NCBI RefSeq assembly: GCF_029626265.1
Contig: NZ_JARUBN010000001.1
Location: 1,860,001-1,924,000, forward strand
Length of the DNA stretch: 64,000 bases
Direction: 5' to 3'
Origin: Micromonospora sp. WMMD1102
Lineage (GTDB): Bacteria; Actinomycetota; Actinomycetes; Mycobacteriales; Micromonosporaceae
Positions 3,414-57,517 of this stretch are shown in pieces. The notes under the pieces are model-generated. The model was not told where the DNA came from and did no database searches. It was given only the letters and a program-made list of their open reading frames with translations. Numbering within the stretch: the stretch's first letter is position 1; each line of letters opens with the position of its first letter. The translations under genes and the position numbers were made by a program.

Positions 3414-3544
3414 TCAGCCACCGCCGGAGCCACCGTCCCGTTCGCCCCGCGCCGTCCCTCCCCTTCATTCCAGGTTCCTAGGATGCTATAGGGGGGGCGC
3501 GGGGGACGCCTCTGGCCTACTGACCCGCCGCGCGGGCCCCCGAG

Positions 3545-3574
3545 TTGGCATCTGTTCGCGGGCTCGGCTAAAGT
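3545..3574 (+). promoter_or_regulatory. Predicted promoter of the tRNA operon
   Basis: TTGGCA at 3545-3550 and TAAAGT at 3569-3574 are separated by 18 bp and lie about 33 bp before the first tRNA. This matches a housekeeping-sigma promoter. It is predicted from sequence only. Confidence 0.5.
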
Positions 3575-3606
3575 TCTCATCCGTCACCAGGAAACACCGG
3601 AGACAA

Positions 3607-12723: not shown

Positions 12724-13412
12724 GGAGGAGTCTCCCGCAACGTGTATCCCAGGCCGCGCAGCGTGTAGATCAATCGCGGCTCACCCTCGGCCTCCATCTT
12801 TCGGCGCAGGTAGCTCACGTACACCTGAAGGTTGTTGGCGGTGGCGCTCATGTCGAAGCCCCAGATCGCCTCGAACAGCGCGTCGCGGGTCAAGACCCGG
12901 GTCGCGTTGCGCACGAGAACCTCCAGGAGGGAGAACTCGGTCCGGGTCAGGTGCAGCGGCCGCCCGCCCCGCCACGCCTCGAACCTGTCGGGATCGACCC
13001 GGACATCGGCGAACGACAGGATCTGCGACTCCCCGTCGGCCGGCGTGCGCCGGCGCAGCAGGGCCCGCACCCGGGCCAGCAGCTCCTCGGTGGCGAACGG
13101 CTTGGGCAGGTAGTCGTCGGCGCCCGCGTCCAGCCCCGCGACCCGGTCGGAGACCTGGTCACGGGCGGTCAGCATCAGCACCGGCAGACCCTGGCCCGCG
13201 GCCCGCAACCGCCGGCAGGTCTCCAACCCGCCGAGGCGGGGCATCATCACGTCGAGGATCAGCAGATCCAGCGCGTCACCGCCGGCCGCACCGACCCCGT
13301 CGAGCACAGCGAGACCGTTGGCGACGCTGCTGGTGTCATAACCCTCGACCTGGAGCACCCGCTCCAGCGACTCACGGATGGCCGCGTCATCATCCGCGAT
13401 CATGATCCGCAT
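12720..13412 (-). CDS. OmpR/PhoB family response regulator
   Basis: 230 residues. Receiver with acidic cluster DDD at 7-9, phosphoacceptor Asp54 (LLILDVMMP) and Lys104. C-terminal winged helix at about 125-225 ([23 protein letters not shown]). First gene of the two-gene operon with the kinase. A GGAGGGGG site precedes the ATG. Confidence 0.94.
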
Positions 13413-13746
13413 GCCGGACCGCCCCCTCCGGTCGATACCTTTGCCGCTTACTCTTCCCGGTCAACCTGAGGACAGGATTAGAGCCGTCGCCGCTGTGGTG
13501 CCCGCTGGCCGTGCTCTTACGGACGCTTGCACCTCCCCGAGGTCTCAACGCTTCCGCAACGACATCCGACCCGCCGGCGTGGGACAGTGAGCACCTCGCG
13601 TCCGGGGACGGAGTATCGAAGGCCCGGGAGGACGAGAGGACGGCTCGTTGAAGCTGGTGGTGCAGGCCTTGCCGCAGCAGATGCTGTCGGTTGGGAGCAC
13701 GGGGTCGATGTTCTGGAGGTCGGGTGCTGGGGCCGGTGGTCACCGT
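13413..13746. other. Intergenic stretch without a supported gene
   Basis: About 330 bp between the response regulator start and the hairpin after the NlpC/P60 gene. No open frame here has a recognisable domain or good ribosome site. It should hold the two-component operon promoter, but no clear -35/-10 pair with normal spacing stands out. Confidence 0.5.
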
Positions 13747-13784
13747 CTCCTGGGTGTCCCGGGCGGGCCCGGGACACCCAGGAG
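13747..13784. terminator. Perfect hairpin after the NlpC/P60 gene
   Basis: A 17-bp perfect stem (13747-13763 with 13768-13784) with a 4-nt loop, 6 bp beyond the NlpC/P60 stop codon on the minus strand. Confidence 0.85.
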
Positions 13785-13790
13785 CGGATG

Positions 13791-14597
13791 TCACCCGTTG
13801 GCGACGGTCGAGACTCCGAGGATGCGGAAGGCTGCGACGCGGACGTTGCGGAGGCCGCCTTCGGCGCGGACCGAGACCTCGGTGCCAGGTTCGGGCGCGT
13901 CGAGGATCCGGCCGTCCCCCTCCCAGAAGGCAACGTGACCGACGGCTTCGCTGGTCGTCTTGTAGAAGATCAGGTCACCGACCTTCAGGTCCGAGTAGTC
14001 GGCCGACTTGGCATAGAACTTGCCCGGGGACTGGTGGTCCTTGGCCCAGTTCCACATGTCGACCGCACGGCGGACCGGCCAGCCGGGAAAGTTGCCGATC
14101 GGGTTGTAGGAGGCGTAGACCAGACCCGAGCAGTCATAGCCTGGGCCCTCACCCCCCAGAACGTAGGGGGCGCCGAGCTTCGCCATGGCGTTCTTGTGAC
14201 CGATCATCGTCCAGTTGAAGATCTCCCGCTCCTCGAAGCACGAGGTCCCCTGCTCGGTCGTCCCGTTCTGGACCCTCACCTTGAGGTGGTTGATGTTGGG
14301 GATGTTGTCGGGGTTCCAGTCGGACCTGAGGCCGACCTCGTGATGACCGTTGCCGCCTCGGAGGACGAAGAAGGGGTCACCACTGGGAAAGATGAACGGT
14401 GCCGCGTCGTGGTCGGCATTGTGGGCCTGGATCCGTAGCACCGGAGAGATGTTGCTCGCCGTGCCGGTGTCCTCGATCCGCCAGCGGACGGTCACCTTGT
14501 CGCCGGCCTTCCAGTCGACCTGGATGAAGGCCTCGGCACCCGGGCAGGAGACGGTGAGCGTGCCACTCGGGTTGCTCCACGGCCGTTTCAAGATCAT
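13791..14597 (-). CDS. NlpC/P60 family peptidase domain protein
   Basis: 268 residues from the ATG at 14597. The N-terminal half is a beta-rich segment of unknown family. The C-terminal half is an NlpC/P60 cysteine peptidase with catalytic Cys156 (GPGYDCSGLVY) and His221 (VGHVAFWEGDG), the type that cleaves peptidoglycan peptides or related amides. No signal peptide is present. The upstream sequence is an ISAs1 transposase end whose stop overlaps this ATG, so the original N-terminus was probably lost to the insertion. It may be inactive or cytosolic. Confidence 0.7.
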   Translation of the reverse strand: MILKRPWSNPSGTLTVSCPGAEAFIQVDWKAGDKVTVRWRIEDTGTASNISPVLRIQAHNADHDAAPFIFPSGDPFFVLRGGNGHHEVGLRSDWNPDNIPNINHLKVRVQNGTTEQGTSCFEEREIFNWTMIGHKNAMAKLGAPYVLGGEGPGYDCSGLVYASYNPIGNFPGWPVRRAVDMWNWAKDHQSPGKFYAKSADYSDLKVGDLIFYKTTSEAVGHVAFWEGDGRILDAPEPGTEVSVRAEGGLRNVRVAAFRILGVSTVANG

Positions 14598-43414: not shown

Positions 43415-43451
43415 CGGTGTCGCGGTGTCGCGAGCACATCAGGAGGTGCGC

Positions 43452-44417
43452 ATGACTGGAGACGCCCAGCCCGAGCCGCTCTACCGGCGGATCGCCGGGG
43501 AGTTCGAAGCCAGGATCCGGTCCGGTGATCTACAGCCGGGGGACCGGCTGCCGTCCATCCGGCAGATCGCGGACCGCTGGGGGATCGCGATCGCGACCGC
43601 GACCAGGGTGCTCGCCACATTGCGCGAGGACGGGTTGGTCGAAGCGAAGGTCGGTTCGGGCACGGTGGTCCGCGCTTCCCCTGGAAGTCCGCGCCTGTCC
43701 AACCGGGCGAAGGCGTCCGCCTCCCGACTGCCCCTGCGTCCGGTGGGCGGTGCGAAGCAGGCGCTCAACCGCGATCACCTGCTGCGGACGGCCATCGCCA
43801 TCGCCGACGTCGAAGGCGTCGAGGCCGTGTCCATGCGACGGGTCGCCGCCGAACTCGGTGTGGGGACCATGTCGCTCTATCGCCACATCACGAACAAGGA
43901 TGACCTGGTGACGCAGATGGCCGACCTGGTCTTCGGAGACGAGGAACTGCCTGATCCGGGGCCCGAGGGCTGGCGGGCCAAGCTCGAACTGGTCGCGCGG
44001 CGGCAGTGGGCGCTGTGCTGGCGGCACCTCTGGTTGCCCAAGGCGATCTCGTTCACGCGGCCCGCGCTCGCGCCGAACATGATGGTGCACACCGAGTGGA
44101 CCCTGCGGGCGCTCGACGGTCTCGGCCTCCCGCTGCGGACGCGGATGCAGGAGGCACTGGCGCTGCACTCGCTCGTGATCAACGCCGCGGTGTCCACGGC
44201 GGACGAGGTCGAGGCCGAGCAGGAGACGGGAGTGACCCTGGCCAGGTGGCTACAGACGCGGCGGGCCCGGACCGACGAGCTGCTCGCCAGCGGTCTGTTC
44301 CCACTGCTGGCGAAGGTGCACGAGGAAGCCGCACCAGATCTCGAAGAGCTGTTCGAATACAGCCTCGCCCGGCATTTGGACGGATTCGCGGTCCTGGTGG
44401 GCGAGCCAGGTCACTAG
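43452..44417 (+). CDS. GntR-TetR hybrid transcriptional regulator
   Basis: 321 residues from the ATG at 43452 (AGGAGG upstream). Residues about 5-75 are a GntR winged helix (IRSGDLQPGDRLPSIRQIAD). Residues about 105-320 are a TetR-like helix-turn-helix (VSMRRVAAELGVGTMSLYRH) with a TetR_C effector domain. This two-DNA-binding-domain layout is a known actinobacterial regulator type that usually represses an adjacent divergent operon and itself. Confidence 0.92.
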   Translation: MTGDAQPEPLYRRIAGEFEARIRSGDLQPGDRLPSIRQIADRWGIAIATATRVLATLREDGLVEAKVGSGTVVRASPGSPRLSNRAKASASRLPLRPVGGAKQALNRDHLLRTAIAIADVEGVEAVSMRRVAAELGVGTMSLYRHITNKDDLVTQMADLVFGDEELPDPGPEGWRAKLELVARRQWALCWRHLWLPKAISFTRPALAPNMMVHTEWTLRALDGLGLPLRTRMQEALALHSLVINAAVSTADEVEAEQETGVTLARWLQTRRARTDELLASGLFPLLAKVHEEAAPDLEELFEYSLARHLDGFAVLVGEPGH

Positions 44418-44569
44418 TTGGGATCACGACCGGCCGGGCGGGCAACCTACCACCCGTCCGTCCGGGCCGGTCGGTGCCCAGCGAGCTGCCAGAGCCAGCC
44501 GCACTGTTGCCGATCCTGCCGGTGCTGAGCTGGACCACCTGGGTACCTCGACGACCGGGCAGTCTCGTC

Positions 44570-45382
44570 CTACCGGGCCAGCTCAGTTCCGGAGCCGTTG
44601 GCGTCCAGCCCGCCCAGGAAACCCTTGGCGACCATGCCGCGTAGGCCGCGCTCGGCGGTCTCCGTGTCCAGCCCGGCCCGGTGCGCGACCGCACGGGTCG
44701 TCCGAACACCGTCGCAGGCGGCGAGCAGGTCCGCCAGCCTCGACGGCAGCCGGTACGTCCGCACCGGACCGGAACGGCTCGTGGCGTGCAGCAGGTAGTG
44801 GGTGGTACCGCTCGGCAGGCTGCCGGCCGCCCGTCCGGCGACGACGATCCGTTGGATCTCCGCGATCGGGCGGTCGAACGTCGCGAGCAGGACGCCCGGC
44901 CGCAGCGCGGGCGGGCCGGCCGGCGGTTCCACCCCAACGGTGCCGACCCGTGCCTCGTACCAGAGGGTTTCGAACGCCACCATCTCGCGGAGCAGCCGGA
45001 TCCGGGCGGTACTGGGCAGCGTGGCAACGGCCGCGGCGAGCTCGCTCCCGACCGCCAGGCTGTCCTCGGGCCGGCTCAACGTCCGACGTCCCAGTACGGG
45101 GCGCAGCACGGTCTCCTCCTCGGCGGTGCCGCGGAGCAGGGCTGCGCTGCCGGGGAAGGCGGCGGTGAACCTGGCCTTGCGTTTGAGGCTGGTGATCGAG
45201 GCGGTGAGCCGAAGGCCGGGCAGTGGCACGGCGGCCAGTCGCCGGGCCAGCTCGGGGTCGGTGCCGTGCCGCCGGGCGAACCTGTCGGGGTCGGCGTGCA
45301 GCTCCTCGGCGAGTGACCCGTCGATCAGGAGCCTGGCCAGCAGCGCCTGCCCGCCAGCCGGAAAGGTGTGCTCCGTGCTCAT
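44570..45382 (-). CDS. Candidate MNIO partner protein with C-terminal winged-helix domain
   Basis: 270 residues. Its start overlaps the MNIO gene stop (ATGA), the usual arrangement for MNIO (DUF692) enzymes and their partner. The N-terminal part (LLARLLIDGSLAEELHADPD; FARRHGTDPELARRL) resembles DUF2063-like partners. The C-terminal 60 residues look like a winged helix (RLADLLAACDGVRTTRAVAH, RGLRGMVAKGFLGGL) that could bind the precursor leader. Partner assignment rests mainly on position and is moderately sure. Confidence 0.65.
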   Translation of the reverse strand: MSTEHTFPAGGQALLARLLIDGSLAEELHADPDRFARRHGTDPELARRLAAVPLPGLRLTASITSLKRKARFTAAFPGSAALLRGTAEEETVLRPVLGRRTLSRPEDSLAVGSELAAAVATLPSTARIRLLREMVAFETLWYEARVGTVGVEPPAGPPALRPGVLLATFDRPIAEIQRIVVAGRAAGSLPSGTTHYLLHATSRSGPVRTYRLPSRLADLLAACDGVRTTRAVAHRAGLDTETAERGLRGMVAKGFLGGLDANGSGTELAR

Positions 45383-46233
45383 CGGGCACCCCGGGAGACG
45401 CCGCCCGCCGTGAGGGTGGCGCGGACCCGGTCCAGCTCGTCGACGAGTTCGGTGAAGTCGTCGGGGAAATGGCCGTCCCGCTCGATCATGGCGGCCCGGA
45501 CGTGCTGGCGGCTCTCCAGGTGTTCGAGCAGTGCGAACACGTCGTCTCCCACCGGGGCGTCGTGGCCGTCGACGAGTGGTACGCCACCCTGGCCCAGGTT
45601 GCCCGCCAGGTGCACCTGGACGACACGGTCGAGCGGCAGCGCGTCGAGGAAGTCGTAGGGGTCGAACCCGTGGTTGGCCGCGTTGACCACGACGTTGTTC
45701 AGGTCCAGCAGCAGGCCGCAGTCGCAGCGGTCGAGGACGGCGGTGATGAACTCGGCCTCGGTCATGCCGCCCGGCAGGTCGAGATAGTAGCTGATGTTCT
45801 CCAGCAGGAACGGCCGCCCCAGCCCGTCCTGCACCCGCTGCGCGTTCGCGGCTATCGTCCTGACCTTCTCTTCCGTGCGGAGCACCGGCGTCAGGTTGTG
45901 CAGCTCGACGCCGTCCTCCCGGGTGAAGCAGAGGTGGTCGCTGACCCAGGGTGCGTCGACGACGTCCGCCACCGCCGCGACGGCGTCCAGGTAGTCCGGA
46001 TCCACCGGGGCGTCCGAGCCGATCGACATCTCCAGGCCGTGGGCGACCACGACGAAGCGGTCCCGGAGAGCGCGCAGCAGCTTGTTCTGCGCCGGATCCA
46101 CCAGGTAGCGGTCCGTGACGATCTCCAGCCAGTCGATCGCGGCCGGGTGGGCGAGGATCCCGTCGTGCAGCTCCTCGCGGTAGCCGAGCCCGACGCCCAG
46201 GTCGGGCGGGGCGGAGATGGTGGTAGTGGGCAT
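45379..46233 (-). CDS. MNIO (DUF692) multinuclear iron oxidative enzyme
   Basis: 284-residue TIM-barrel enzyme of the MbnB/TglH family, which uses two or three iron atoms and O2 to remodel Cys or other residues in RiPP precursors. Predicted metal ligands are visible in order: H65 (VVAHGLEMSIG), H100 (WVSDHLCF), E145 (LLENISYY), D177 and H188 (LLLDLNNVVVNAANHG), H208 (VVQVHLAG), D222 and H224 (VDGHDAPV). All core positions seem intact. It overlaps the partner gene and follows the nitroreductase gene by 29 bp. Confidence 0.93.
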   Translation of the reverse strand: MPTTTISAPPDLGVGLGYREELHDGILAHPAAIDWLEIVTDRYLVDPAQNKLLRALRDRFVVVAHGLEMSIGSDAPVDPDYLDAVAAVADVVDAPWVSDHLCFTREDGVELHNLTPVLRTEEKVRTIAANAQRVQDGLGRPFLLENISYYLDLPGGMTEAEFITAVLDRCDCGLLLDLNNVVVNAANHGFDPYDFLDALPLDRVVQVHLAGNLGQGGVPLVDGHDAPVGDDVFALLEHLESRQHVRAAMIERDGHFPDDFTELVDELDRVRATLTAGGVSRGAR

Positions 46234-46262
46234 GACCTCTCCTCGCGGTTCGTAGGGCTCGC

Positions 46263-46949
46263 TCAGGCCGTCCGGAACACTGGCGACGGGGCCGGGTGTC
46301 CGGGCGCGACGGGGTGTCCGAGCGCGACTGTGAACAGGTGCCGCGCCCCCGGCAGGAGCCCGGCCGCCGCCCGCCGCACCAGGTAGTGGCCGGCGCCGAA
46401 GACCACGCCCTCCAGACCGTGGGTGCGCGCGGCCAGCCAGATGGCGTAGCCGAGCGCGCCGATCCGGACCAGCAGGCCTCCGGCGGCCTCCCGTCCCGTC
46501 CCCGCCGGCGAGCCGCAGACGAGCGCGAACACCGGCGCGTCGGCGTAGACGTCCGCCAGATCGTCGAGCCAGTCCGGAACGCCGAGCGGAAGAAGATTGC
46601 CGGCGGGAGCTGGCGTGAACAGGCCCCTACCCCGACCGTCGGCGCGGCGGACCGCCAGCAGCAGCCGCACGCCCGGGTCCGGATGCCGGTCGACCGGCCA
46701 CTGGTCACGCTGAGCCCGGGTCGCCCGGTGCAGCACCGCGCGCAGCGTCGCCTCGGTCACCGGCGTCTCGGTGAACTCCCGCACCGACCTACGGCCTTCG
46801 AGGACCGCCGCAAGTGGTACGCCGTCGGTCACGGGCTCGGCCGCCCCGTCGTCCGGCGCGTACCTTTCGACGCTGCGGGGGAACGGGGCGCGACGGCGTA
46901 CCAGGTCTGCCAGCGCCTCGGCCGGTACGTCCACGGGGATCAGTGGCAT
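46263..46949 (-). CDS. Nitroreductase-family FMN oxidoreductase
   Basis: 228-residue nitroreductase fold: LEGRRSVREFTETPVTEATL at the N-terminus and GALGYAIWLAARTHGLEGVV later. In a RiPP cluster with YcaO and E1 proteins such an enzyme is expected to oxidise azolines to azoles, or to reduce another intermediate. It overlaps the end of the upstream fusion gene by 10 nt. A second SagB-like domain is fused in that neighbour, so the cluster encodes two dehydrogenase-like units. Confidence 0.85.
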   Translation of the reverse strand: MPLIPVDVPAEALADLVRRRAPFPRSVERYAPDDGAAEPVTDGVPLAAVLEGRRSVREFTETPVTEATLRAVLHRATRAQRDQWPVDRHPDPGVRLLLAVRRADGRGRGLFTPAPAGNLLPLGVPDWLDDLADVYADAPVFALVCGSPAGTGREAAGGLLVRIGALGYAIWLAARTHGLEGVVFGAGHYLVRRAAAGLLPGARHLFTVALGHPVAPGHPAPSPVFRTA

Positions 46950-48634
46950 CTCTCACCTCGGTGTAGGCCGGCTACCACGGTCACGTACCGGCCGGTCGGT
47001 TGCAGGTCGAGCAGCTCGGCCAGGCTCTCGTCCCAGCGGGTCGCGAATTCCGTGCGGAGCCCGTGCGCGGCGGCGACGGCGGCGAGCTGGGTGACGGCGC
47101 AGCCCGCGTCCAGGTGGGTGAGCCGGTACGCGAAGTCCTGGTACTTTGCCGCCACCCGGTCGTGTGCGGCGGTGAACACCAGCGCGGCGTCGAGACGGTC
47201 GGCGGGCAGGTCGGTGCCGGCCAGCGCGTTGGCCAGCGGCACGGCGTCGGCGCGCAGGGCGATCAGCGCGTGGTCCAGGTCGTCGTAGCGGAAGATCGTT
47301 CCGGGTAGGTCGGCGACGCCGGTCTCGGTGACGAGGTGGAGTTCCACCGACCCGAGCTGCCCGCCGGACGGCACCCAGCGCTGCGCCGGGCCGTCGGCCT
47401 CGCCCCGCCGTCGGCCCGCCACCCGGGCGAGCAGGTCGGCGACCAGCGCCTGGTGCAGGCTTCCGGGTGCGGCCCGGCGTACGCCGTCGCCGAACGTCCC
47501 CGGCAGCGGCAACCGTTCCGCCGGCAGCCCGCGCCGGGGGTGGGCGTGGTGGGTCGGACGCTCGTCCGCCAACTCCCGCCACCTGCGCCGAACGGCCCGC
47601 GACGGGGGGCCGGCCCGCAGAGCGGCGGGAACCACCCGCTCGGTCATCCAGAGGCCGATGTCCACCAGGTCCGGCTCCGGCCCGTCGCCGCCGGCGTCGT
47701 CGCACGGGCAGTCCGGGTACGGCACGACGACGTGCTGGCCGGTGCCCCAGGCGTCGAGGTCGATCCTGGTCAACGTCGTCGGAGCCCGCAGGGATGCCCC
47801 GGAGACGATGCCCAGCACCTCGGCCGCGGCCAGCCCGGCGAGCGTCTCCCCGACCGTGGCATCAGCGAACCCGGCCGTGGCATCGGAGGTCTTCGCCGTC
47901 TTCCCGGCCGTGGCATCGGAGGTCTCCGCACCCAGCCAGCCCGCCTCGGCCCGGCCACGGCGCAGGCATCCGGGGCAGGCGGTGAGACCGGGAACGAAGC
48001 AGGGCCCGATCTCGAGGTGGGTGCGATCGGCGGCAACCCGTAGCACGGGCACGGCGTGCGGCGCACACAGTCCGGCCACCCGCTCGACCGCCGACGGGTC
48101 CCGGCTCTCCTCGACCACCACCACCAGGGACCGCCCGGCTCCGGCGAGGGCCTCGACTCCGGCTTCGGCAAGTGGCCCGCAGGTGATCTCGCCCACGCCG
48201 CACTCGCGCAGGTCCGCGGCGACCGCCCTGGTCACCTCGGTCGGCCCGACGACGTGCAAGGCGACCACCGCGAGCGCGTCGAGCAGGGCGCCGGTGCCGG
48301 CATGGCCGCCGTTGCCGCCCAGGCTGCGTGAGTGGTAGTCGACGACGTGCTCGGGGGCCCCACCCCGGCGGGGCGGCGCGGCGGATTCCAGCAGTCCACG
48401 TTGGTCGAGCAGGGCCAGTGGCCGGTCCAGGCGCTCCGGCGGCAGGCCCAGCTCGGCGGCGATCTCCTGGCGGTCCCGGGAGCCGTCGAGGAGGGGAAGA
48501 AGTCGCGGCAGCAGCGTGCTGGCGGCCCGACCCCGGAACACGTGGCGCGGCCCCGAGCCCTGCACGACGAGGGACTCCTCGGTCGGCACCACCGCGAGAC
48601 CACGGCACAGCCGTACCCGGACGTCATCGGACAC
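46940..48634 (-). CDS. TOMM leader-binding E1-like protein fused to SagB-type dehydrogenase
   Basis: 564 residues. Residues 1-90 resemble the RRE of TOMM leader-binding proteins (RLCRGLAVVPTEESLVVQGS; HVFRGRAA; RQEIAAELGLPPERLDRPL). Residues about 100-310 are an E1-like region with Cys pairs (CPGC, CPC) but no clear ATP loop. Residues about 340-560 are SagB/nitroreductase-like (VPSGGQLGSVELHLVTETGV; FAYRLTHLDAGCAVTQLAAV). It should hold the precursor for YcaO and oxidise the azolines. A repeat-derived TSDATAG insertion lies between CPGC and the middle region. GTG start. Confidence 0.82.
   Translation of the reverse strand: MSDDVRVRLCRGLAVVPTEESLVVQGSGPRHVFRGRAASTLLPRLLPLLDGSRDRQEIAAELGLPPERLDRPLALLDQRGLLESAAPPRRGGAPEHVVDYHSRSLGGNGGHAGTGALLDALAVVALHVVGPTEVTRAVAADLRECGVGEITCGPLAEAGVEALAGAGRSLVVVVEESRDPSAVERVAGLCAPHAVPVLRVAADRTHLEIGPCFVPGLTACPGCLRRGRAEAGWLGAETSDATAGKTAKTSDATAGFADATVGETLAGLAAAEVLGIVSGASLRAPTTLTRIDLDAWGTGQHVVVPYPDCPCDDAGGDGPEPDLVDIGLWMTERVVPAALRAGPPSRAVRRRWRELADERPTHHAHPRRGLPAERLPLPGTFGDGVRRAAPGSLHQALVADLLARVAGRRRGEADGPAQRWVPSGGQLGSVELHLVTETGVADLPGTIFRYDDLDHALIALRADAVPLANALAGTDLPADRLDAALVFTAAHDRVAAKYQDFAYRLTHLDAGCAVTQLAAVAAAHGLRTEFATRWDESLAELLDLQPTGRYVTVVAGLHRGERCH
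47871..47925 (-). repeat. 22-bp direct repeat within the fusion gene
   Basis: A 22-bp unit occurs at 47871-47892 and 47904-47925, with a degenerate third copy near 47851. It encodes TSDATAG-type segments, a low-complexity in-frame expansion. Confidence 0.8.
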
Positions 48635-49283
48635 CGGCGTCCTCCCTCTTCCTCAGGCGCAGCAGGGTACGCAGATCGCGTTCGGGCAGCGGCCGGCCGC
48701 AGCGGGGGCAGCCGTGGCAGGCGAGCACCGGGTCCTGCCGGACGGCGACCCCGCGCAGCGGTACGGAGATCACCCGACCGGCCGTCACGTCGGGGCGGGC
48801 CAGGACGCGGAGAGCCAACCCGGCCGCGGTCCGCGCGTGCTGCGGCAGGAAACCGGCCGGACCGCAGGCCGGGTCCCGGTCGTAGGCGACGTACAGGGCC
48901 GCGGACCCCGGCCAGTGCGGATCGTGTTGGGCCCGGCGTTCCTCGAAGCAGCCGTGACACGGCCCGGCTCCCGGCACGACCAGCGGTCCGATCCGCAGGT
49001 GCGAGGGCTCCAGCACGACCGGCAGCCAGGGGACACCGGTCGCGTGGGCGCGTTCGTCGATCTGGTCGCAGAACGCGGGCGACGGACGCCACAGGGCCAC
49101 CACCAGCGCGCTCGGCATACCGGCGAACGCGGTCTCCGGGGCGTCGTCGGGCGGGACCTGCGTGCCGTCCGTCATCCGGGCCAGTAGCCCGGTGACCCGG
49201 CGACCGAACGGACCGATTCCGAGCAGGGCCGTCCGCTCCGGGACGATCGCGGCGGGGGTGGTCAGGCGAACGGCTGTGGCCAT
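48624..49283 (-). CDS. Short E1-like cyclodehydratase component
   Basis: 219 residues. A nucleotide-fold start (ALLGIGPFGRRV) is followed by zinc Cys motifs: CHGC at 109-112 and CHGCPRC at 189-195. This is the pattern of the E1-like part of azoline-forming cyclodehydratases, here without an RRE. It overlaps the YcaO gene upstream (22 nt) and the fusion gene downstream (11 nt), so it is almost certainly part of the same complex. Confidence 0.78.
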   Translation of the reverse strand: MATAVRLTTPAAIVPERTALLGIGPFGRRVTGLLARMTDGTQVPPDDAPETAFAGMPSALVVALWRPSPAFCDQIDERAHATGVPWLPVVLEPSHLRIGPLVVPGAGPCHGCFEERRAQHDPHWPGSAALYVAYDRDPACGPAGFLPQHARTAAGLALRVLARPDVTAGRVISVPLRGVAVRQDPVLACHGCPRCGRPLPERDLRTLLRLRKREDAGVR

Positions 49284-50548
49284 GGATTCAGCTCCTCTTC
49301 GGGCAGCACGCGGTGGCCCATCCGGGCGGGTGCCTCGGACAGCCGTGGATGTGCGGTGAACTGGGCCAGCGGATGGAGGCTCAGCGGCTGGAGGTCGGGG
49401 ATGACGACGTGCACCGCGGTCAGCCCCACGTCAGCCAGCTCCCGCGTCGTCCGGTCGACCACGACGGGCCGGGCTCCGGCGCCGGCCAGCCGCTCGACCA
49501 GCGCCGCGAGGGCCAGGTCCGGATCGGCCGGCAGTTCCGGGCGTCGGGGCGACGGCCGCGCGACGGCATCGGTCAGCAGGAAGTCGAATGCGCCCGCCCG
49601 CTCCGGTGCCCCCATGAACCGGGCACCGTCGTGCACCGCCGCGGACCCCACGGGACCGCCCGGCGGGCCGGCGCCCTCGCTCAGCAGTCCGGTCAGGGCG
49701 ACCGCCTCCTCCAGAGCCTTGGCCGCCGCACCCGACAGGGTCCGCCCGGTGCTCGCCGCCGTCCAGTTCCGCAGTCGCGGGTCGTGCACGGCGCTCAACA
49801 GGCAGTAGACGGTCGGCACACCGAGGTCGGTCGTCGCGTCGAGCAGGCGTACGTCGACGAAGCGGCGCCGGCAGCAGTCGACGAGGTGGCGCGTCGACCC
49901 GGCCAGCTCGTCGGGCGCAACGGTGGGCAGGGGCAGCCGTTGCAGCCAGAGGATGGCGACGGCGTCCCGCTCGATCACCTCCAGGGCGCCGCGGACGACC
50001 GCCTCCACCGGATCGGTGTGCACCGCGTGGCCGGTGGAGAGCCGGTGTACGAAGCGTTCCGCGTCGTCGACCGGTGCCAGGTCCCGGCAGGCCATCACCG
50101 CCGGCACCCGGACCGGCGCGGCACTGCACAGGTCGAGTCCGATGACCCACCTGATCGGCGCGGCCGGGTCGAACGGGCGGACCGGGCAGCCGGGGGTGGC
50201 CAGTTCCCGTGCCGAGCAGCGCGGATAGCGGGAGGGTTCGAGGCACTCGCCGGCCAGCTCGTCGGCGGTCGCCCGCAGGATCTCCCGACGGTGCGGGGCC
50301 AGTGCCATCGCGTACCGCTCGGCACCCTCGGCGATGGCGACGAACCGGGCCAGTCGCGGGTCGGCCCAGCTCCGCCCACCACCGCCCAGCCGGCCGGTAC
50401 GGCGACGGGTGTTCGCCGGACCCGGCGTGCCCACCTCGGCCCCGCACGAGTAGAGCCGGTCGCAGATCCGTGACGGCCGTGCGTCGGAGACGGCCGACAC
50501 CACGCCGTAGGGGGACACCAACTCGTCGAGAGACTCCGGATTCACCAT
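49262..50548 (-). CDS. YcaO cyclodehydratase 1
   Basis: 428-residue YcaO enzyme. ATP/Mg motifs are present: E74 and E77 (AIAEGAERYA), E182, E190 and E193 (VEAVVRGALEVIERDA). The protein ends NPWPQPFA, the proline-rich tail typical of azoline-forming YcaO proteins. It should phosphorylate backbone amides so that Cys/Ser/Thr cyclise, or in other family members form thioamides or amidines. It follows the precursor gene by 79 bp on the same strand and is paralogous to the divergent YcaO at 50929. Confidence 0.93.
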   Translation of the reverse strand: MVNPESLDELVSPYGVVSAVSDARPSRICDRLYSCGAEVGTPGPANTRRRTGRLGGGGRSWADPRLARFVAIAEGAERYAMALAPHRREILRATADELAGECLEPSRYPRCSARELATPGCPVRPFDPAAPIRWVIGLDLCSAAPVRVPAVMACRDLAPVDDAERFVHRLSTGHAVHTDPVEAVVRGALEVIERDAVAILWLQRLPLPTVAPDELAGSTRHLVDCCRRRFVDVRLLDATTDLGVPTVYCLLSAVHDPRLRNWTAASTGRTLSGAAAKALEEAVALTGLLSEGAGPPGGPVGSAAVHDGARFMGAPERAGAFDFLLTDAVARPSPRRPELPADPDLALAALVERLAGAGARPVVVDRTTRELADVGLTAVHVVIPDLQPLSLHPLAQFTAHPRLSEAPARMGHRVLPEEELNPWPQPFA

Positions 50549-50627
50549 GCCTCCCCGGGCCCGCCCGCCGTGCTCGCGGCACGACGGGCGGGCGGTCGCA
50601 CTCCGTCGAACTACCCGCGCCGGTGGC

Positions 50628-50765
50628 TCAGGCGCACATCGGGTAGTTGCACTGGACGTTCGAGCTCTGCGCCACGCCGCACATCGGCGCCTCGTCGAAC
50701 GTGCCGTACTCCTCGTAGTCCTCGACGTCGAGGTCCAGTTCGGTGGTGCTGATTTCAGCCGCCAT
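50628..50765 (-). CDS. RiPP precursor peptide (45 residues, three Cys)
   Basis: A small gene with ribosome site GGAAGGAG 6 nt before the ATG. The leader MAAEISTTELDLDVEDYEEY is very acidic. The C-terminal part MCGVAQSSNVQCNYPMCA has Cys29, Cys39 and Cys44, two PMC motifs and Ser34-Ser35 as modifiable residues. It sits between two YcaO genes and heads the minus-strand biosynthetic operon. The position and composition fit a thiazole/oxazole precursor that is also a substrate for MNIO chemistry. Confidence 0.85.
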   Translation of the reverse strand: MAAEISTTELDLDVEDYEEYGTFDEAPMCGVAQSSNVQCNYPMCA

Positions 50766-50928
50766 CTCGTACTCCTTCCGGTGGAAAAGGGCGTGGACCA
50801 CCCTGTCGACACCGTCCGTCGCCGGGCGGTCGGCGGCCGGTCGTCCGGCGACCGGGCGCGGACCGGAGGCACTGCCAGGCTGTGGGCCCGACGAACGCGA
50901 GCGGGCGGGGCCGGAGAGGGGACTGGAC

Positions 50929-52236
50929 GTGCGCCACCGGGAGAGACCGAGGGACCTGACATCGCTCGACGGCCTGGTCTCGCCCTACGGGCTGGTCTCC
51001 CGGGTCGGGGCGCTGGCCACCCCGGGCCTGCCCGCCTACTTCTGCTACTGGAAGTCGGAGGCGGGTGCGCCCGGTCCGGCCCGCCGGCTCGGTCACCAGG
51101 AGATTCTCGTCGGCTCCGGCCAGGCGTGGGACGATCCGGGTCTCGCGCGGTTCGTCGCCATCGCCGAGGTCGCCGAACGGTACGCGGGTCGCGACGTCCT
51201 CGCCGAGGAACGGATCTGGGCGACCGCCGAGGAACTGGGCGACGATTGTCTGGAACCCGAGCGGTACCCGCGTTGCACGGAGGCCGAGTACGCGCATCCG
51301 GACTGCCCGATCGTCCCCTTCGACCCCCGCGCGGCGATCCGCTGGACATCCGGGCTCGACCTGTTCAGCGGCGAACCGGTCTGGGTACCGGCTGTGCTGG
51401 CCTGTTACGGACTCACCGGGACCGTGCCGGCGGAGCACTTCAGCTGTCGGATGTCGACGGGCTTCGCGGTCCACACCGACCCGGTGGAAGCCGTCGTCCG
51501 GGGGCTGTTCGAGGTCGTCGAGCGGGACGCCAACGCGGTCGTCTGGCTCCAGCGGCTCGCCCTGCCGCTGGTGGATCCCGGCTGCCTCGACGAACGGCTG
51601 CGCCGACTGGTCGGGTGGTGCCGTGACCGGTTCAAGGAGGTCCACCTCTTCGACGCCACCTCCGACCTGGGCGTGCCGACGGTCTACTGCGTGGTCGCCG
51701 CCGAATACGACCCGCGGGCGCACCGGGTGGTCGGTGCCAGCTCCGCCCGGGATCTGACCGGGGCCGCGCACAAGGCACTCCTGGAGGCGCTGGGCGTCCC
51801 GCAGTTCATCCACTTCGTGGATCCGACGGCGGAGCCGGCGACACGGGCGCGGCTGCGGGCCGTGGGAGACACCACACGTTACATGGGTCGGACGGAACAC
51901 GCGTACGCGTTCGACTTCCTGCTGGACGGTGCGGATCGCCGTACGTCCACGGCTCGGCCGTCGCTGCCCGCCGACCCGTCCGAGGCGCTGGCCGAGGTCG
52001 TCGGCCGGCTCGCCGGGGCCGGGATGCGGCCGGTCGTCGTCGACCGCACCACCCGGGAACTGGCCGACGTCGGGCTCACCGCGGTGAACGTCGTCGTCCC
52101 CGACCTCCAGCCGATGAGCGTCGAGCACCTGATCCGGTTCACCGCACATCCGAGGCTGTACGAGGCACCGGCCCGGATGGGCTATCGTGTCCTGCCCCCG
52201 GCGAAACTGAACCCGTGGCCGCAGCCGATGGCCTAG
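50929..52236 (+). CDS. YcaO cyclodehydratase 2 (divergent paralogue)
   Basis: 435 residues from the GTG at 50929 (GGAGAGGGG upstream). Intact ATP-site residues E80 and E83 (AIAEVAERYA), E187, E195 and E198 (VEAVVRGLFEVVERDA). Ends NPWPQPMA. It is clearly related to YcaO 1 along its whole length, for example DRTTRELADVGLTAV in both. Transcribed divergently from the precursor. The pair may act on different residues or form a heteromer. Confidence 0.92.
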   Translation: MRHRERPRDLTSLDGLVSPYGLVSRVGALATPGLPAYFCYWKSEAGAPGPARRLGHQEILVGSGQAWDDPGLARFVAIAEVAERYAGRDVLAEERIWATAEELGDDCLEPERYPRCTEAEYAHPDCPIVPFDPRAAIRWTSGLDLFSGEPVWVPAVLACYGLTGTVPAEHFSCRMSTGFAVHTDPVEAVVRGLFEVVERDANAVVWLQRLALPLVDPGCLDERLRRLVGWCRDRFKEVHLFDATSDLGVPTVYCVVAAEYDPRAHRVVGASSARDLTGAAHKALLEALGVPQFIHFVDPTAEPATRARLRAVGDTTRYMGRTEHAYAFDFLLDGADRRTSTARPSLPADPSEALAEVVGRLAGAGMRPVVVDRTTRELADVGLTAVNVVVPDLQPMSVEHLIRFTAHPRLYEAPARMGYRVLPPAKLNPWPQPMA

Positions 52237-52238
52237 CC

Positions 52239-52265
52239 GGCCGGGCCGCAGCCGGTGGCCCGGCC
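52239..52265. terminator. Hairpin between YcaO 2 and the convergent SARP gene
   Basis: A perfect 9-bp stem (GGCCGGGCC at 52239-52247 with 52257-52265), directly after the YcaO stop. No T-run. Confidence 0.5.
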
Positions 52266-52325
52266 TGGCGGTTTCCGGACGACGGCTCCCTCGGATACCG
52301 CGACGAAGTGGTACCGAGCGGCGGG

Positions 52326-53081
52326 TCAGAACACGGCTCGGGAGAGCCCCGGGTTGCGCTGGAGCAGTCGCTGGTGCGTCTGCCGCAGGGCCGGTCCCGG
52401 CTCGTCGCCGAGCTGCTCCACCAGTCGGGCACGGATGCCGGCATAGCGTTCCAGCGCCTCGGCCTGGTGACCGCACCGGTGCAGCGCCTCCATCAGCAAT
52501 CCCGTGATCGCCTCGTCCAGCGGATGCTCCTCGGCCAGGTGCACCAGGTCCGGCACCAGCTCCGCGTGCCGCCCCGCCGCGAGCCAGGCGGCGGCCGCGG
52601 CCGTCCGGGCCGACAGCTGCTCCCGACACAGTGTCGCGCGGGCCCCGTCCGCCCACGGGGAGTCCACGTCGGCCAGGGGTACCCCGGCGGGCAACCGCAG
52701 GGCGCGGTCGTAGAGGCAGGCGGCGGCGTTGTCGTCGATCGCCAGCCGCGCCTGCCGGACCAGTTGTCTGAACCGGTGCAGGTCGATCCGCTCGGGATCC
52801 ACGTCCAGCAGATAGCCGCCCCGCAACCGCACCAGCTCGCGTTCGGCCCCACCGGCCTCCGCGAGGGTACGCCGCAACCGCTTGGCGCAGGTGTAGAGCG
52901 CGTCTCTCGGGTCGACGGGCATCTCCTCGCCCCAGATCCGCGAGATCAGCCGCTCGTCGGGAACGAACTCGCGCGGCGACCAGGCCACGGAGGCGAGCAG
53001 ACTCCGGACCCGGCCGGAGGACGGACGGACCTGCCTGCCCCCGCTGACGATTGCCACCGCGCCCAACAGCTGGAATTCCAC
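52326..53081 (-). CDS. SARP family transcriptional activator
   Basis: 251 residues from the GTG at 53081 (GAGGAG upstream). OmpR-type winged helix (EFQLLGAVAIVSGGRQVRPS; LISRIWGEE) and a bacterial transcriptional activation domain (VDLHRF-type and EEHPLDEAITGLLMEALHRC). This is the short SARP layout used by pathway-specific activators, so it probably switches on the adjacent RiPP genes. Confidence 0.92.
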   Translation of the reverse strand: MEFQLLGAVAIVSGGRQVRPSSGRVRSLLASVAWSPREFVPDERLISRIWGEEMPVDPRDALYTCAKRLRRTLAEAGGAERELVRLRGGYLLDVDPERIDLHRFRQLVRQARLAIDDNAAACLYDRALRLPAGVPLADVDSPWADGARATLCREQLSARTAAAAAWLAAGRHAELVPDLVHLAEEHPLDEAITGLLMEALHRCGHQAEALERYAGIRARLVEQLGDEPGPALRQTHQRLLQRNPGLSRAVF

Positions 53082-53203
53082 CTCTGCTCCTCGCGACGAG
53101 ATGCGAACATGCCAGGCCACAACGTCGCACCCTGCCGCATGATCTCCGCTCCGATCGCGCATGGCACTGTCAGGAGTTCTCGACAGGACGCCCGGTTCTC
53201 GTG

Positions 53204-56200
53204 TCAGCCGAGCAGCGCGGCGGTCTCCGCCTGACGTGGAATGTCGAGTTCGACGAAGTGTCGGTGCGCCCGGCGCCACGCCGAGCGGGCGGCCCGCTCG
53301 GCACCGGTGAGCCGGTACGCCCGCCCGAGCGGGACCAGCGCGTTGGCGTACCCGAGCGACTGCCCGGTCCGCCGGAAGACCCGCAGGGCGTGTCGGCACG
53401 CGGCGACGGCCGCGGGTCCGTCGCCCAGCGCCACGAGAGCGGGCCCCAGGGTCGCGTACGCCTTGCCCAACACCAGAGGGCTGCCCGCAGCGGCGAGGCG
53501 GAGCGCCTCGGTCGCGTGTTCGCGCGCCTGGTCCGGCCGACCGCCGGCCAGGGTCACCCGGGCCAGCCCGACCAGCGACTCGACCCGGCCGGCGTGGTGG
53601 CCGGTGCGGTCGGTGATGGTGACGGCGGCCGCCAGCCGCCCCAGCGCGGCCTCGATCCGGCCCTCTCCGGTCGCCGACTCCGCGAGTCCGATCAGCGCAT
53701 CGACCTGGCAGTTCAGGTTCTCCGCCTGGCAGGCGAGGCGTAGCGCCGCGCGGTGTGCGTCGGCCGCCAGCGACCAGCGGCCCGCGTCGTTGTGCACCCG
53801 GCCGATCGTCTCGAAGCTGATCGCCTCGCCGTAGGGCAGACCGGCGCCCCGGGCGACGGCCAGGGCGCGCTCCAGCCAGTGCAGCGCCGCCGCCAGGTGT
53901 CCCCGCTCCTGCCGGACGAGCCCGAGGTTCACCAGGACGATCGACTGCATGTTCAGGTCTCCGATCCGTTCGGCCAACGGAAGGGAGGCGGTGAGGCACC
54001 GTTGGGCCGGGCCGAGCCGGCCGAGGGCGAGATGGGCCGAGGCGAGGTTGTTCAGCCCCGACGACTCACCACGTGCGTTGTCCAACGCATTGTCGATCCG
54101 GATCGACCTGCGGTACCGGGCCAGAGCCTGCCGTGGCCTGCCCAACTGCTTCAGGGTGACGCCGATGCCGCGCAGCGCGTCCGCCTCGCCGCGCCGCCAG
54201 TTGGCCCGGCGGGCGAGCGCCAAGGCCCGTTCGTACTCGGCCCGGCCCGCGACCAGCCTGGTCATCCGCCAGTTGGCGTGGCCGAGCGACAGTCTCATCG
54301 CGGCCTGGCCGCCCAGGTCGCCGGCGCGTTGGGCCGCAGCCAACCCGATGTTCGCCATCCGCACCGACTCGGCCAGGGGCCGGAAGTGGTGGAGATAGTC
54401 CTGCAGGGCGATCACCAGCAGGCAGGCCATCGGCCTGGCGTCGAGGTCGGCGGAGAGGTGTACCGCGGCGGTGATCTCCTCCCACGTCTCGTCGAGCCAG
54501 GCCAGCGCGTGGGACCTGTCCCGGAAGGACTCCGGGGTGACGTGGGGCGGGATCGTGTCCGGCGGGGACGAGATCAGATAGAAGCCGCCCGCTCGTGCCG
54601 TTCCCACAGCCGAGTAGAGGTAGTACGCCATCAGCCGCCGTACGGCCTGTCGCCGCTCGGTCGGGGAGTCCTCCTCGGCAACCCGCTCCGCGGCGTACTC
54701 GAGCAGCAGGTCGTGGGCGGCGAACCGGTTGACGCCGACCTCGGTCACCAGGTGCACCCGGGCGACGCTGTCCAACAACTCCTCCGCCTCGCCGCGGTCC
54801 ACCCCGGCCAGCGCCGCCGCCGAGGCGCTGGCCAGACCACCGCTCGGAGCCAGCGACATCAGCCGGAACATCCGGCGGGCCGGCGCGGGCAGCGCCTGGT
54901 AGGAGAGGTCCAGTGTGGAGCGCACCGCCGTGTGTTCGTCGCCGTCGACCCGGAGCCGGGCCAGCCTGCCCCGGTCGGCCAGCTCCGCGACGTAGTCGCC
55001 GACCGTGTGGTAACGCTGCTCGGCCAGTCGCGCCCCGGCGATCGAGAGGGCCAACGGCATGTGACCGCACTGCGCCGCCAGCCGCGCCGCGGCCTCCGGC
55101 TCCGCCCGCAGTCGGGCGGTACCGGCCCCGTGCGCGAGCAGTGCCTGCGCCTCCTGCGGCTCGAGCGCCGCCACGCCGAGCCGGCTCGCTCCCTCCCGCG
55201 CCACCAGGCCGCCGAGGCGGTCCCGGCTGGTCACCACGACCAGGCAGCCGGCACCGCCGGGCAGGACCGGCCGGACCTGTTCTGCGGTCGCGACGTTGTC
55301 GAGCACCAACAGGACGCGTCGGTCCGCGAGCAGTGACCGGTAGAGCGCCACCTGGGCCTGAAGGTCCGCCGGGATGTCCCGGGGGGCCTGCCCGAGGGCC
55401 TGGAGCAGCAGCGGCAGTGCCTCGGTGGGGGACATCAGCTGCCCCGGGTCGAAGCCGCGCATGCCGAGGAACAGTTGGCCGTCGGGGAAGTCGTCGGCGG
55501 CCCGGTGGGCCCAGCGCACGGCCAGGGCGGTCTTCCCCACGCCGGCGGGACCGACCACCAGCACGATCCGCGCCGCCCCCGAGGCCAACCAGTCGAGCTG
55601 CTTCAGCTCCGCCTCCCGGCCGACGAACCGTCCGATGTCGGCGGGCAACTGCCGAGGAATCCTCGCCGATTCCGGCGGAAACGGACCGGCCGGTTCCAGC
55701 GTGCCCGCCAGTACGCGTTGGTGCAGACTCCGCAACTCCTCGCTGGGCTCCAACCCGAGCTCCGCGATCAGGCGGGTACGGAAGTCGCGGTACACCTCCA
55801 ACGCCTCGGCCGCCCGGCCACCCGAATACAGCGCGAGCATCAGCAGCCGCTGGGATCTCTCCCGGAGCGGGTCCTCCGCGACCAGCCGGGTCAGCTCGGC
55901 CACTGCCTCGTGCAGCCGACCCAGTGCCAGCATGGCCTCGGCGCGTCCCTCCAGGGCCGCCGTCCGGTGTTCGGTGAGCCGTACCGCCTCGGCCTCGACA
56001 TGCGGCCCCCGCAGGCCGGCCAGCGGCGCACCCCGCCACAGGGTCAACGCCGCGTCGTAGTCGGCGACGGCCTCCGCCGGACGACCCTCGAACGCCGCCC
56101 GGCGGGCCGACTCCACCCGTTCGACGAACAACGCCGCGTCCAACTCCCCGTCACCCACCCGCAACAGGTAACCCGGGCTTCTGGTCTCGACCAACGTCGC

Positions 56201-56443
56201 ACCCTGCGGCCCACAGGCCCGACGAAGCTCCGCCACCAGGGCTCGCACCCTGGCGGCGGCGGAGACGGGCGGATCATCTCCCCAGATCCGGTCGGTGATC
56301 CGTTGTACGGAGACGACGTGATTGGCCTCCAACACCAGTACGCCGAGCAACGCCTGCTGCCGGCCGGTCAACTCGACCGGCCGTCCCGCCACGGTCAGCC
56401 CGACCGGTCCCAGCAGAGTGACCTGCGTACCGCTCACCACCAT
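53204..56443 (-). CDS. AfsR-type SARP/NB-ARC/TPR regulator
   Basis: 1079 residues from the ATG at 56443. N-terminal SARP DNA-binding and activation domains (about 1-250), an NB-ARC ATPase (GPAGVGKTALAVRWAHRA; RRVLLVLDNVATAEQVRPV; CGHMPLALSIAGARLAEQ) and a long C-terminal tetratricopeptide region (about 640-1079). A large signal-integrating activator. With the short SARP gene beside it, the cluster has two SARP-family regulators. Divergent from the GNAT gene. Confidence 0.93.
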   Translation of the reverse strand: MVVSGTQVTLLGPVGLTVAGRPVELTGRQQALLGVLVLEANHVVSVQRITDRIWGDDPPVSAAARVRALVAELRRACGPQGATLVETRSPGYLLRVGDGELDAALFVERVESARRAAFEGRPAEAVADYDAALTLWRGAPLAGLRGPHVEAEAVRLTEHRTAALEGRAEAMLALGRLHEAVAELTRLVAEDPLRERSQRLLMLALYSGGRAAEALEVYRDFRTRLIAELGLEPSEELRSLHQRVLAGTLEPAGPFPPESARIPRQLPADIGRFVGREAELKQLDWLASGAARIVLVVGPAGVGKTALAVRWAHRAADDFPDGQLFLGMRGFDPGQLMSPTEALPLLLQALGQAPRDIPADLQAQVALYRSLLADRRVLLVLDNVATAEQVRPVLPGGAGCLVVVTSRDRLGGLVAREGASRLGVAALEPQEAQALLAHGAGTARLRAEPEAAARLAAQCGHMPLALSIAGARLAEQRYHTVGDYVAELADRGRLARLRVDGDEHTAVRSTLDLSYQALPAPARRMFRLMSLAPSGGLASASAAALAGVDRGEAEELLDSVARVHLVTEVGVNRFAAHDLLLEYAAERVAEEDSPTERRQAVRRLMAYYLYSAVGTARAGGFYLISSPPDTIPPHVTPESFRDRSHALAWLDETWEEITAAVHLSADLDARPMACLLVIALQDYLHHFRPLAESVRMANIGLAAAQRAGDLGGQAAMRLSLGHANWRMTRLVAGRAEYERALALARRANWRRGEADALRGIGVTLKQLGRPRQALARYRRSIRIDNALDNARGESSGLNNLASAHLALGRLGPAQRCLTASLPLAERIGDLNMQSIVLVNLGLVRQERGHLAAALHWLERALAVARGAGLPYGEAISFETIGRVHNDAGRWSLAADAHRAALRLACQAENLNCQVDALIGLAESATGEGRIEAALGRLAAAVTITDRTGHHAGRVESLVGLARVTLAGGRPDQAREHATEALRLAAAGSPLVLGKAYATLGPALVALGDGPAAVAACRHALRVFRRTGQSLGYANALVPLGRAYRLTGAERAARSAWRRAHRHFVELDIPRQAETAALLG

Positions 56444-56698
56444 GGAAGTGGACCGTAGATCAAAAACCGCCCATCGCGCGAACGGACCGGATGTCCGGCC
56501 GAAGGTCTGGGCCAGCGGACCGGTAGCGGGAGTCAGATGGGCAATCCGGGCATGTGCCTGAGTTTCAGGCCATGCCGCCGGGGGCAGCATGCGAACGTCC
56601 CGCCACCGGCACGGTCGCCTCTCCGGAATTCCCTGGTCAGGGGCGTGGCAGACTGGTCGGGTCGGCTGGGGGGGAGGGTGTCGGGAGAGTGGCGCAGG

Positions 56699-57343
56699 AT
56701 GATCACGGAAATCCGTAGCTTCGCGGAGACCGACCGTGCCGCCCTGCGTGAGCTGTTCCGCCGGGCGGGAGAGGGCTCGCCGTCCTCCCTGCTCTGGGGG
56801 CACCAGGAGTCGGAGGCGGCCATGTACCTGGAGCCGTACATGAGCCAGGAACCGGACTCGTTGTTCCTGGCCGTCGCAGGTGGCCAGGTCGTCGGCTACC
56901 TGGCGGGGTGCCCGGACAGCTCGACCTTTCCCACCGAACGAGAGCGCATGGAGCGGGCGATCGCGAGGTATCGGCTGGTTTTCCGGCCCAGGCCCGCGGC
57001 CTTCCTTGCCCGTGGCATGGTCGACATGGCGACGGCCGCGGTCCGGCGAAAGCCGACCGCGGGCGGCTTCGACGATGCCCGTTGGCCGGCCCACCTGCAC
57101 ATCAACGTGACGCCCCGGGCACGGGGGACCGGCGCCGCCGACGGCCTGATGCGGCGATGGTTCGACCGGCTCGTCGAGACCGGTTCACCCGGGTGCTATC
57201 TGCAGACCCTGGCCGAGAACACCCGCGCGGTGCGGTTCTTCGAACGCGTCGGCTTCACCAGACACGGTCCGACGCCGCTGGTCCCCGGTGCCAGGCGGGG
57301 CGGCAGGCCGCTGCACCAGCAGACGATGGTCTGGCAGCCCTGA
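56699..57343 (+). CDS. GNAT family N-acetyltransferase
   Basis: 214 residues from the ATG at 56699. GNAT motifs: SLFLAVAGGQVVGYLAG, acetyl-CoA loop NVTPRARGTGAADGLMRRWF, and TLAENTRAVRFFERVGF. It could acetylate the finished peptide, for example its N-terminus, or confer self-protection, as acetyltransferases do in other azole-peptide clusters such as goadsporin. It might also be unrelated to the cluster. Confidence 0.88.
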   Translation: MITEIRSFAETDRAALRELFRRAGEGSPSSLLWGHQESEAAMYLEPYMSQEPDSLFLAVAGGQVVGYLAGCPDSSTFPTERERMERAIARYRLVFRPRPAAFLARGMVDMATAAVRRKPTAGGFDDARWPAHLHINVTPRARGTGAADGLMRRWFDRLVETGSPGCYLQTLAENTRAVRFFERVGFTRHGPTPLVPGARRGGRPLHQQTMVWQP

Positions 57344-57517
57344 AGTAACTCGATCCGTTCCCTGCGGCCCCGCACCGGGGCCGAGAGGTCGAGCGGGTCG
57401 CGAGCCTCCGGCGAGACCCGGAACCGTACCGGCCGGGCGCGTCCAACGAGCGTCCAGTTGCCGTTCAGTCCGGATTGAAAACGTGGCCGCACAGCTGCCT
57501 CGCCGATGGAGGGGAAC

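Follow-up and report, generated by a model that had tools for sequence, protein, structure and literature searches.

A probable hybrid gene cluster for a ribosomally synthesised peptide, combining azole-forming enzymes with an MNIO, in Micromonospora sp. WMMD1102

The 8.9-Mb genome of Micromonospora sp. WMMD1102 contains, at approximately 44.6-56.4 kb of the 64,000-nucleotide stretch analysed here (the window, to which coordinates refer unless another locus is named), a cluster for a ribosomally synthesised and post-translationally modified peptide (RiPP). A run of minus-strand genes encodes a precursor, a YcaO protein (YcaO1), an E1-like protein, a three-domain fusion protein, a nitroreductase-family protein (NR), a multinuclear non-heme iron-dependent oxidative enzyme (MNIO) and the MNIO partner; a second YcaO gene (YcaO2) is divergent on the plus strand, and two SARP regulators lie alongside. 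These gene calls of the initial annotation, made from the sequence alone, were borne out. Pfam or NCBIfam matches back all named families with the sole exception of the MNIO partner. Comparison with related clusters makes it highly probable that the azole set and the MNIO set both act on the one 45-residue precursor. The central features are:

44570..45382, minus strand: MNIO partner protein, a helical domain followed by a C-terminal winged helix resembling a RiPP recognition element (RRE); no Pfam or NCBIfam match
45379..46233, minus strand: MNIO of the MbnB/TglH/ChrH family (PF05114, 281 bits, E 1.1e-83)
46263..46949, minus strand: stand-alone NR (PF00881, 29.8 bits; RRSVR motif)
46940..48634, minus strand: fusion of an N-terminal RRE-like winged helix, an E1-like domain and a C-terminal putative SagB-type dehydrogenase
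48624..49283, minus strand: E1-like cyclodehydratase partner (TIGR03882, 50.2 bits, cut-off 36.9; no Pfam match; two CxxC motifs)
49262..50548, minus strand: YcaO1, SagD-type cyclodehydratase component (TIGR03604, 246.6 bits, cut-off 219.25; C-terminal PWPQP)
50628..50765, minus strand: precursor of 45 residues, MAAEISTTELDLDVEDYEEYGTFDEAPMCGVAQSSNVQCNYPMCA, with an acidic leader and a Cys/Ser core (AAGGAG ahead of the ATG; 88.9% identical copy at locus L117)
50929..52236, plus strand: YcaO2, divergently oriented SagD-type cyclodehydratase component (TIGR03604, 278.3 bits, cut-off 219.25; C-terminal PWPQP)

The azole machinery resembles that of linear azole-containing peptides and thiazole/oxazole-modified microcins in its SagD-type YcaO with a PxPxP end (both copies), its E1-like/RRE scaffold (E1 and fusion), its putative SagB-type dehydrogenase and its acidic leader followed by a Cys/Ser/Thr core. 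It differs in joining RRE-like, E1 and SagB domains in one chain and in having a second E1, a stand-alone NR and the MNIO pair. The PWPQP C-terminus is present in 11 of 11 YcaOs from nine clusters (see below), and YcaO2 aligns with LynD and TruD. The fusion exceeds the cut-offs of TIGR03882 (50.8 bits) and of the nitroreductase family PF00881 (29.8 bits, cut-off 23.5), and its profile aligns with TruD, LynD, MusD and SagB-type dehydrogenases, the N-terminal parts of TruD and LynD being matched. A Lys-Tyr pair, which we take to be the catalytic pair of the SagB domain, is kept in all nine fusions. A tree of YcaO proteins joins YcaO2 to that of the first Streptomyces sedi cluster (99/99) and shows YcaO1 as a separate lineage of unsettled position inside the MNIO-linked YcaO group (84/75). 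The two YcaOs reported by the initial annotation do exist in the window; as both occur in only two of the nine clusters (the window and L117) within the stretches fetched, they are ruled out as a defining trait of the class. YcaO1 and YcaO2 may differ in the residues that they modify, or one of them may be redundant.

The MNIO aligns to TglH, MbnB and 3bww. H65, H100, E145, D177, H208, H224 and E251 are invariant in the nine clusters, and the invariant His/Asp/Asn/Glu residues presumably include those that bind iron. Against the models for BufB (248.3 bits, cut-off 310) and HvfB (224.8 bits, cut-off 360) the enzyme misses both cut-offs, which rules out membership of the bufferins. The partner has a TglI-like fold, as expected of an MNIO partner protein (PME type 1 or 2); a Pfam match to DUF2063 (PME type 1) was looked for in it and not found. 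A second, distant MNIO is encoded elsewhere in the genome at C1:4869237-4870013 (L191, L192), approximately 2 kb from an ABC transporter gene.

A short open reading frame (ORF) with an acidic leader (LDLDVED-EE and similar) and a core with Cys, Ser and Thr is present at each of the nine clusters. In the alignment of the nine precursors only L12, E18, E19 and C29 are invariant, C29 being the sole invariant core residue. The window precursor is acidic and, judged by eye and not with a signal-peptide program, has no hydrophobic stretch, hence no Sec signal of the kind found in bufferins. Among the 75 ORFs of 30-120 residues in the block shared with L117, a leader-like motif occurs in the known precursor alone; the intergenic gaps, one of them 163 bases long, hold two further small ORFs (25 and 41 residues), both basic and without the motif.

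A genome-neighbourhood search for the same gene set, as suggested in the initial annotation, yielded eight further clusters. Scanning the contigs of named genomes with the MNIO returned 80 loci, four of which have the gene set (S. sedi, S. malachitofuscus, Plantactinospora mayteni and Microtetraspora sp. NBRC 13810); a further S. sedi cluster, and one each in G572, G700 and G1065, came from searches of genomes. The resulting nine clusters, including the window, come from three families, and all nine carry YcaO, E1, fusion, NR, MNIO, partner and precursor. At E 1e-50, the MNIO has a match in 5 of 394 genomes of the class, with only the window's own above 43% identity. Matches were found in 13 of 250 genomes of its own family (cluster in its own genome, G572 and G003), in 10 of 392 in the genus of S. 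sedi (cluster in G661, twice, and G700) and in 20 of 297 in the family of Microtetraspora (cluster in G663 and G1065), G661 and G663 being search centres picked because they carry the cluster. The fusion gave 12 matches in 61 relatives (E 0.001), near full length only in the window's own genome and G003. A plasmid location was ruled out: in 72,556 plasmid records the fusion had no match at E 1e-20, and the MNIO matches at E 1e-40, in six records, were all below 46% identity and none was from an actinomycete. This is a real, conserved family of hybrid clusters in which two known RiPP enzyme sets are joined in a new combination. With relatives of the gene set present in several further actinomycetes, the products appear to form a hybrid natural product family that has not been described.

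YcaO, E1 and fusion genes accompany every one of the nine MNIOs with 58.7% identity or more, compared with none of 102 other MNIO rows. The 111 rows are MNIOs with some context, around which azole genes were sought by tblastn at E 1e-8; three places were entered twice (L105/L122, L106/L123 and L107/L125). Several loci have flanks shorter than 5 kb on one or both sides, where a missing azole gene says little. L095-L098 were checked separately, with flanks of no more than 1.5 kb, and MNIO matches from the genus of S. sedi and the family of Microtetraspora entered the count where they had been fetched with flanks. In a tree of 47 of 107 MNIO sequences, chosen by hand and including two identical pairs, the nine cluster MNIOs form one clade (99/98), and the nearest group, with weaker support (88/76), is bufferin-like. 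For partner, fusion, E1, NR and YcaO, distances correlate with those of the MNIO (r 0.72-0.89, p <=0.0014), as they do more weakly for the precursor (r 0.61, p 0.013); seven of the nine clusters were used, the near-copies L117 and L164 being dropped and YcaO represented by the best match to YcaO2.

The association, the clade, the correlated distances and the sole leader-like ORF thus support the proposal of the initial annotation that one peptide serves both enzyme sets, by comparison and not by biochemistry. Alternatively, the MNIO pair might serve another precursor elsewhere in the genome and merely sit in the azole operon. The second MNIO at C1:4869237 indicates that the genome uses MNIOs elsewhere, and the MNIOs adjoining the nine-member clade sit without azole genes. 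However, the place in an azole cluster was kept for all nine close MNIOs across three families, MNIO and partner belong to the same gene run as the azole genes with correlated distances, and the shared block offers no other leader-like small ORF. We regard this alternative as unlikely.

The closest relative, L117 in G572, belongs to another genus of the same family and is 95.0-95.3% identical at the DNA level over window positions 44565-56520. Synonymous divergence (dS) of seven genes is 0.067-0.119 between the two, as against 0.285 in the same genomes for part of rpoC, the single housekeeping gene compared; this difference suggests that the block moved between genera. The MNIO clade also departs from species order, the window grouping with S. 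sedi (95/86) and apart from its probable congener P. mayteni; the cluster therefore travels as a unit. The ratio of nonsynonymous (dN) to synonymous divergence for the seven proteins is 0.14-0.42 (MNIO 0.265, partner 0.327), which shows that these genes were constrained for most of the time since the split; the ratios speak for past constraint, not for present function of the cluster. One difference between the two loci is:

46279..46311, no strand assigned: site of an exporter deletion within the end of the NR gene, 33 bases versus 1894 in L117 (12631-14524)

In L117 an intact ABC transporter gene (12660-14540; PF00664, PF00005) lies between NR and MNIO, and the last codons of the window NR (46263-46278) align with the end of this exporter gene. 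Homologues of the exporter occur in seven of the nine clusters, whole in L117, L124, L005, L006, L007 and L164 and in part in the first S. sedi cluster (L112), where the gene is cut by the locus end; a search of the nine clusters found none in L165 or in the window itself. Among the exporter matches listed from the rest of the window's genome, the best by E-value is 34% identical. The transporter is thus absent from the strain, as the initial annotation had noted, but not from the family, and its lack is ruled out as a feature of the class.

The loss of the exporter gene in this strain, and the existence of related azole clusters without an MNIO, could also be taken to mean that the locus makes an ordinary linear azole peptide and that MNIO and partner are carried along and decaying. 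The dN/dS values of both genes, the invariance of metal-binding-type residues in the nine MNIOs and the retention of both genes in nine of nine clusters argue against decay, and this explanation is very improbable.

For a hybrid pathway on one precursor, the acidic leader would be read by two RRE-like domains, one at the N-terminus of the fusion and one at the C-terminus of the MNIO partner. One or both YcaOs, together with the E1-like proteins, would cyclodehydrate core Cys/Ser residues to azolines, which would then be oxidised to azoles by the SagB domain, perhaps in a pair with the stand-alone NR. The MNIO and its TglI-like partner would oxidise the same core in a reaction that depends on iron and O2. 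In relatives the product would be exported via the ABC transporter; the window's strain would use another exporter or no longer secrete the product. The genes, their homologies, the partner fold, the clade, the joint inheritance and the deletion are computed results, and we infer that both sets act on one peptide, which residues are modified and what the products are.

The most likely MNIO target would be C29, the Cys common to the nine precursors, perhaps converted to 5-thiooxazole, as bufferin-type MNIOs do (PMC12668002). A Cys heterocycle at C29 is proposed tentatively. Cys remodelling by the MNIO in this cluster remains a guess, because MNIOs also act on Asp, Asn, Phe and homocitrulline (PMC11002830, PMC12452194, PMC12636437, PMC13174530). 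The MNIO could thus oxidise or hydroxylate a non-Cys residue, or work beside the NR in making a dehydro amino acid, so that the azole peptide would contain no Cys-derived thiooxazole. DehydroPhe and hydroxy-Asp are products of PflD, an MNIO-nitroreductase fusion (PMC12636437), and in a YcaO-TfuA cluster of Streptomyces homocitrulline is bis-hydroxylated by StdE (PMC13174530). In the window the NR gene adjoins the MNIO gene, and the L165 precursor has a single core Cys. With C29 as the sole invariant core residue and a bufferin-like group, not strongly supported, as the nearest in the MNIO tree, this variant is possible but not the expected outcome.

Should a Cys heterocycle be formed, the cluster may represent a new actinomycete RiPP class, an idea that we put forward with reserve. 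One core would carry azoles formed by YcaO and, at the invariant Cys, a heterocycle (for instance 5-thiooxazole) formed by the MNIO; separate RRE-like proteins would read one leader and the Cys residues would be divided, possibly to give a mixed azole/thiooxazole metal binder. Since thiazole formation and thiooxazole formation by an MNIO would be in competition for one Cys and its neighbouring carbonyl, the conserved cluster offers a natural setting in which to study how a short core is shared between two enzyme sets that read its leader. In the L165 precursor the single core Cys is the C29 equivalent and is followed by Ser/Thr, a core that would fit a division of labour that leaves the first Cys to the MNIO and the rest to YcaO, in this one case. 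The clusters point to a family of actinomycete products not yet described, of which four named members could be tested: S. sedi, S. malachitofuscus, P. mayteni and Microtetraspora sp. NBRC 13810.

Several observations weigh against a hybrid pathway of this kind. The L165 precursor has one Cys only, and the precursor of L007 (Microtetraspora; ORF 3477-3590) looks broken or misread in the deposited sequence, because it ends early and its usual C-terminal part is seemingly in another frame. Between the window and L117 the precursor shows two synonymous and six other changes (dN 0.058, dS 0.079), indicating little constraint; a single change lies in the core, counted from PMCGV, and the remainder precede it. 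The fusion scores 69.4 bits against the SagB model TIGR03605, under the cut-off of 78.4, and its structure model is of low confidence (mean pLDDT 58.7), so structural support for its domains is weak. The distance correlation leaves joint function and transfer of the whole cluster only partly distinguishable. Some azole clusters of similar composition (L127, L181-L184) gave no MNIO match within the 20 kb fetched, and the MNIO pair is therefore an addition to one branch of the azole machinery. As the MNIO lies under the BufB cut-off, a thiooxazole product is not assured, and the window's cluster, lacking its exporter, may be silent.

Thiopeptides, like the proposed product, carry YcaO azoles on Cys, Ser and Thr of one precursor, in their case together with dehydration. 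Neither a lantibiotic-type dehydratase nor a pyridine synthase was matched among the ten block proteins, which sets the block apart from thiopeptide clusters. Dehydrazoles likewise combine YcaO azoles on Cys, Ser and Thr of one precursor with a second modification, which there is dehydration (PMC10676384). In the std cluster of Streptomyces thermodiastaticus an MNIO and a YcaO act on one precursor, the YcaO-TfuA pair giving a thioamide; an MNIO and an RRE-bearing partner together with a YcaO in an actinomycete are common to both systems, but TfuA, the thioamide and a NodU/S8 fusion are found there, and a SagD-type YcaO, E1 and a putative SagB here (PMC13174530). TfuA and NodU had no match among the ten block proteins. 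The PflD system shares the occurrence of an MNIO and a nitroreductase in one RiPP cluster, but the two are fused there and separate here, and an HEXXH enzyme stands in place of the azole machinery (PMC12636437). Bufferins and captophorins (BufB-BufC) provide the closest MNIO models and, weakly, the nearest tree group (PMC12452194, PMC12668002), in contrast to which the present MNIO is under both cut-offs, the partner has no Pfam match to DUF2063 and the leader is short and acidic, by eye not a Sec signal.

In a landscape survey covering MNIO clusters, YcaO appears once, in the reference list (PMC12452194), and a 2025 paper on the biphenomycin type does not mention YcaO (PMC12257519). None of the literature naming both DUF692 and YcaO, as far as it was available, describes the present combination. 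A literature search of partial coverage, which makes an earlier description possible, found no described cluster joining an MNIO with an azole cyclodehydratase, in keeping with the suggestion of the initial annotation that the class is uncommon and possibly undescribed.

The genes had been described as overlapping, which holds for four pairs (partner/MNIO, 4 bases; NR/fusion, 10; fusion/E1, 11; E1/YcaO1, 22), whereas MNIO and NR are separated by 29 bases and YcaO1 and precursor by 79. The interval first assigned to the cluster, 44570..57343, includes the cluster genes but also a GNAT gene (56537-57343), which is ruled out as a member because it lies beyond the block 44565-56520 shared with L117. 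The regulators inside the block are:

52326..53084, minus strand: small SARP regulator (BTAD), by family match; homologues beside clusters L004, L006, L007 and L117
53204..~56443, minus strand: large AfsR-like SARP (BTAD, NB-ARC, TPR), by family matches; start uncertain

A 41-base stretch directly adjoins the cluster block in L117 and is separated from it in the window by positions 56521-57418 (approximately 0.9 kb, with the GNAT gene); this segment was therefore inserted in the window or lost in L117. Just outside the cluster, window positions 43425-44417 encode a regulator that combines, in a single chain, an N-terminal GntR domain and a TetR domain carrying TetR_C_1. Scans of the window for tRNAs and Rfam families gave three tRNAs, all far from the cluster.

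Two further types of cluster were seen in the sampled genomes. S. malachitofuscus has a second azole cluster (L127, 4700-10800) without an MNIO match, whose Gly/Cys/Ser-rich precursor ends in CKPCGTGCGGGCSSCSGC. The neighbouring MNIO clade (49-52% identical) includes L118, L119 and L121 (G487, G502 and G468), with MNIOs beside Cys-rich precursors. The domain scan, which covered L118 and L121, found in both loci lantibiotic dehydratases of full length and a glycosyltransferase whose C-terminal part is a PqqD-like domain (Pfam), and in L118 also an S9 peptidase; the neighbours of L119 resemble these by appearance. All three look like hybrids of a lanthipeptide-type system with an MNIO.

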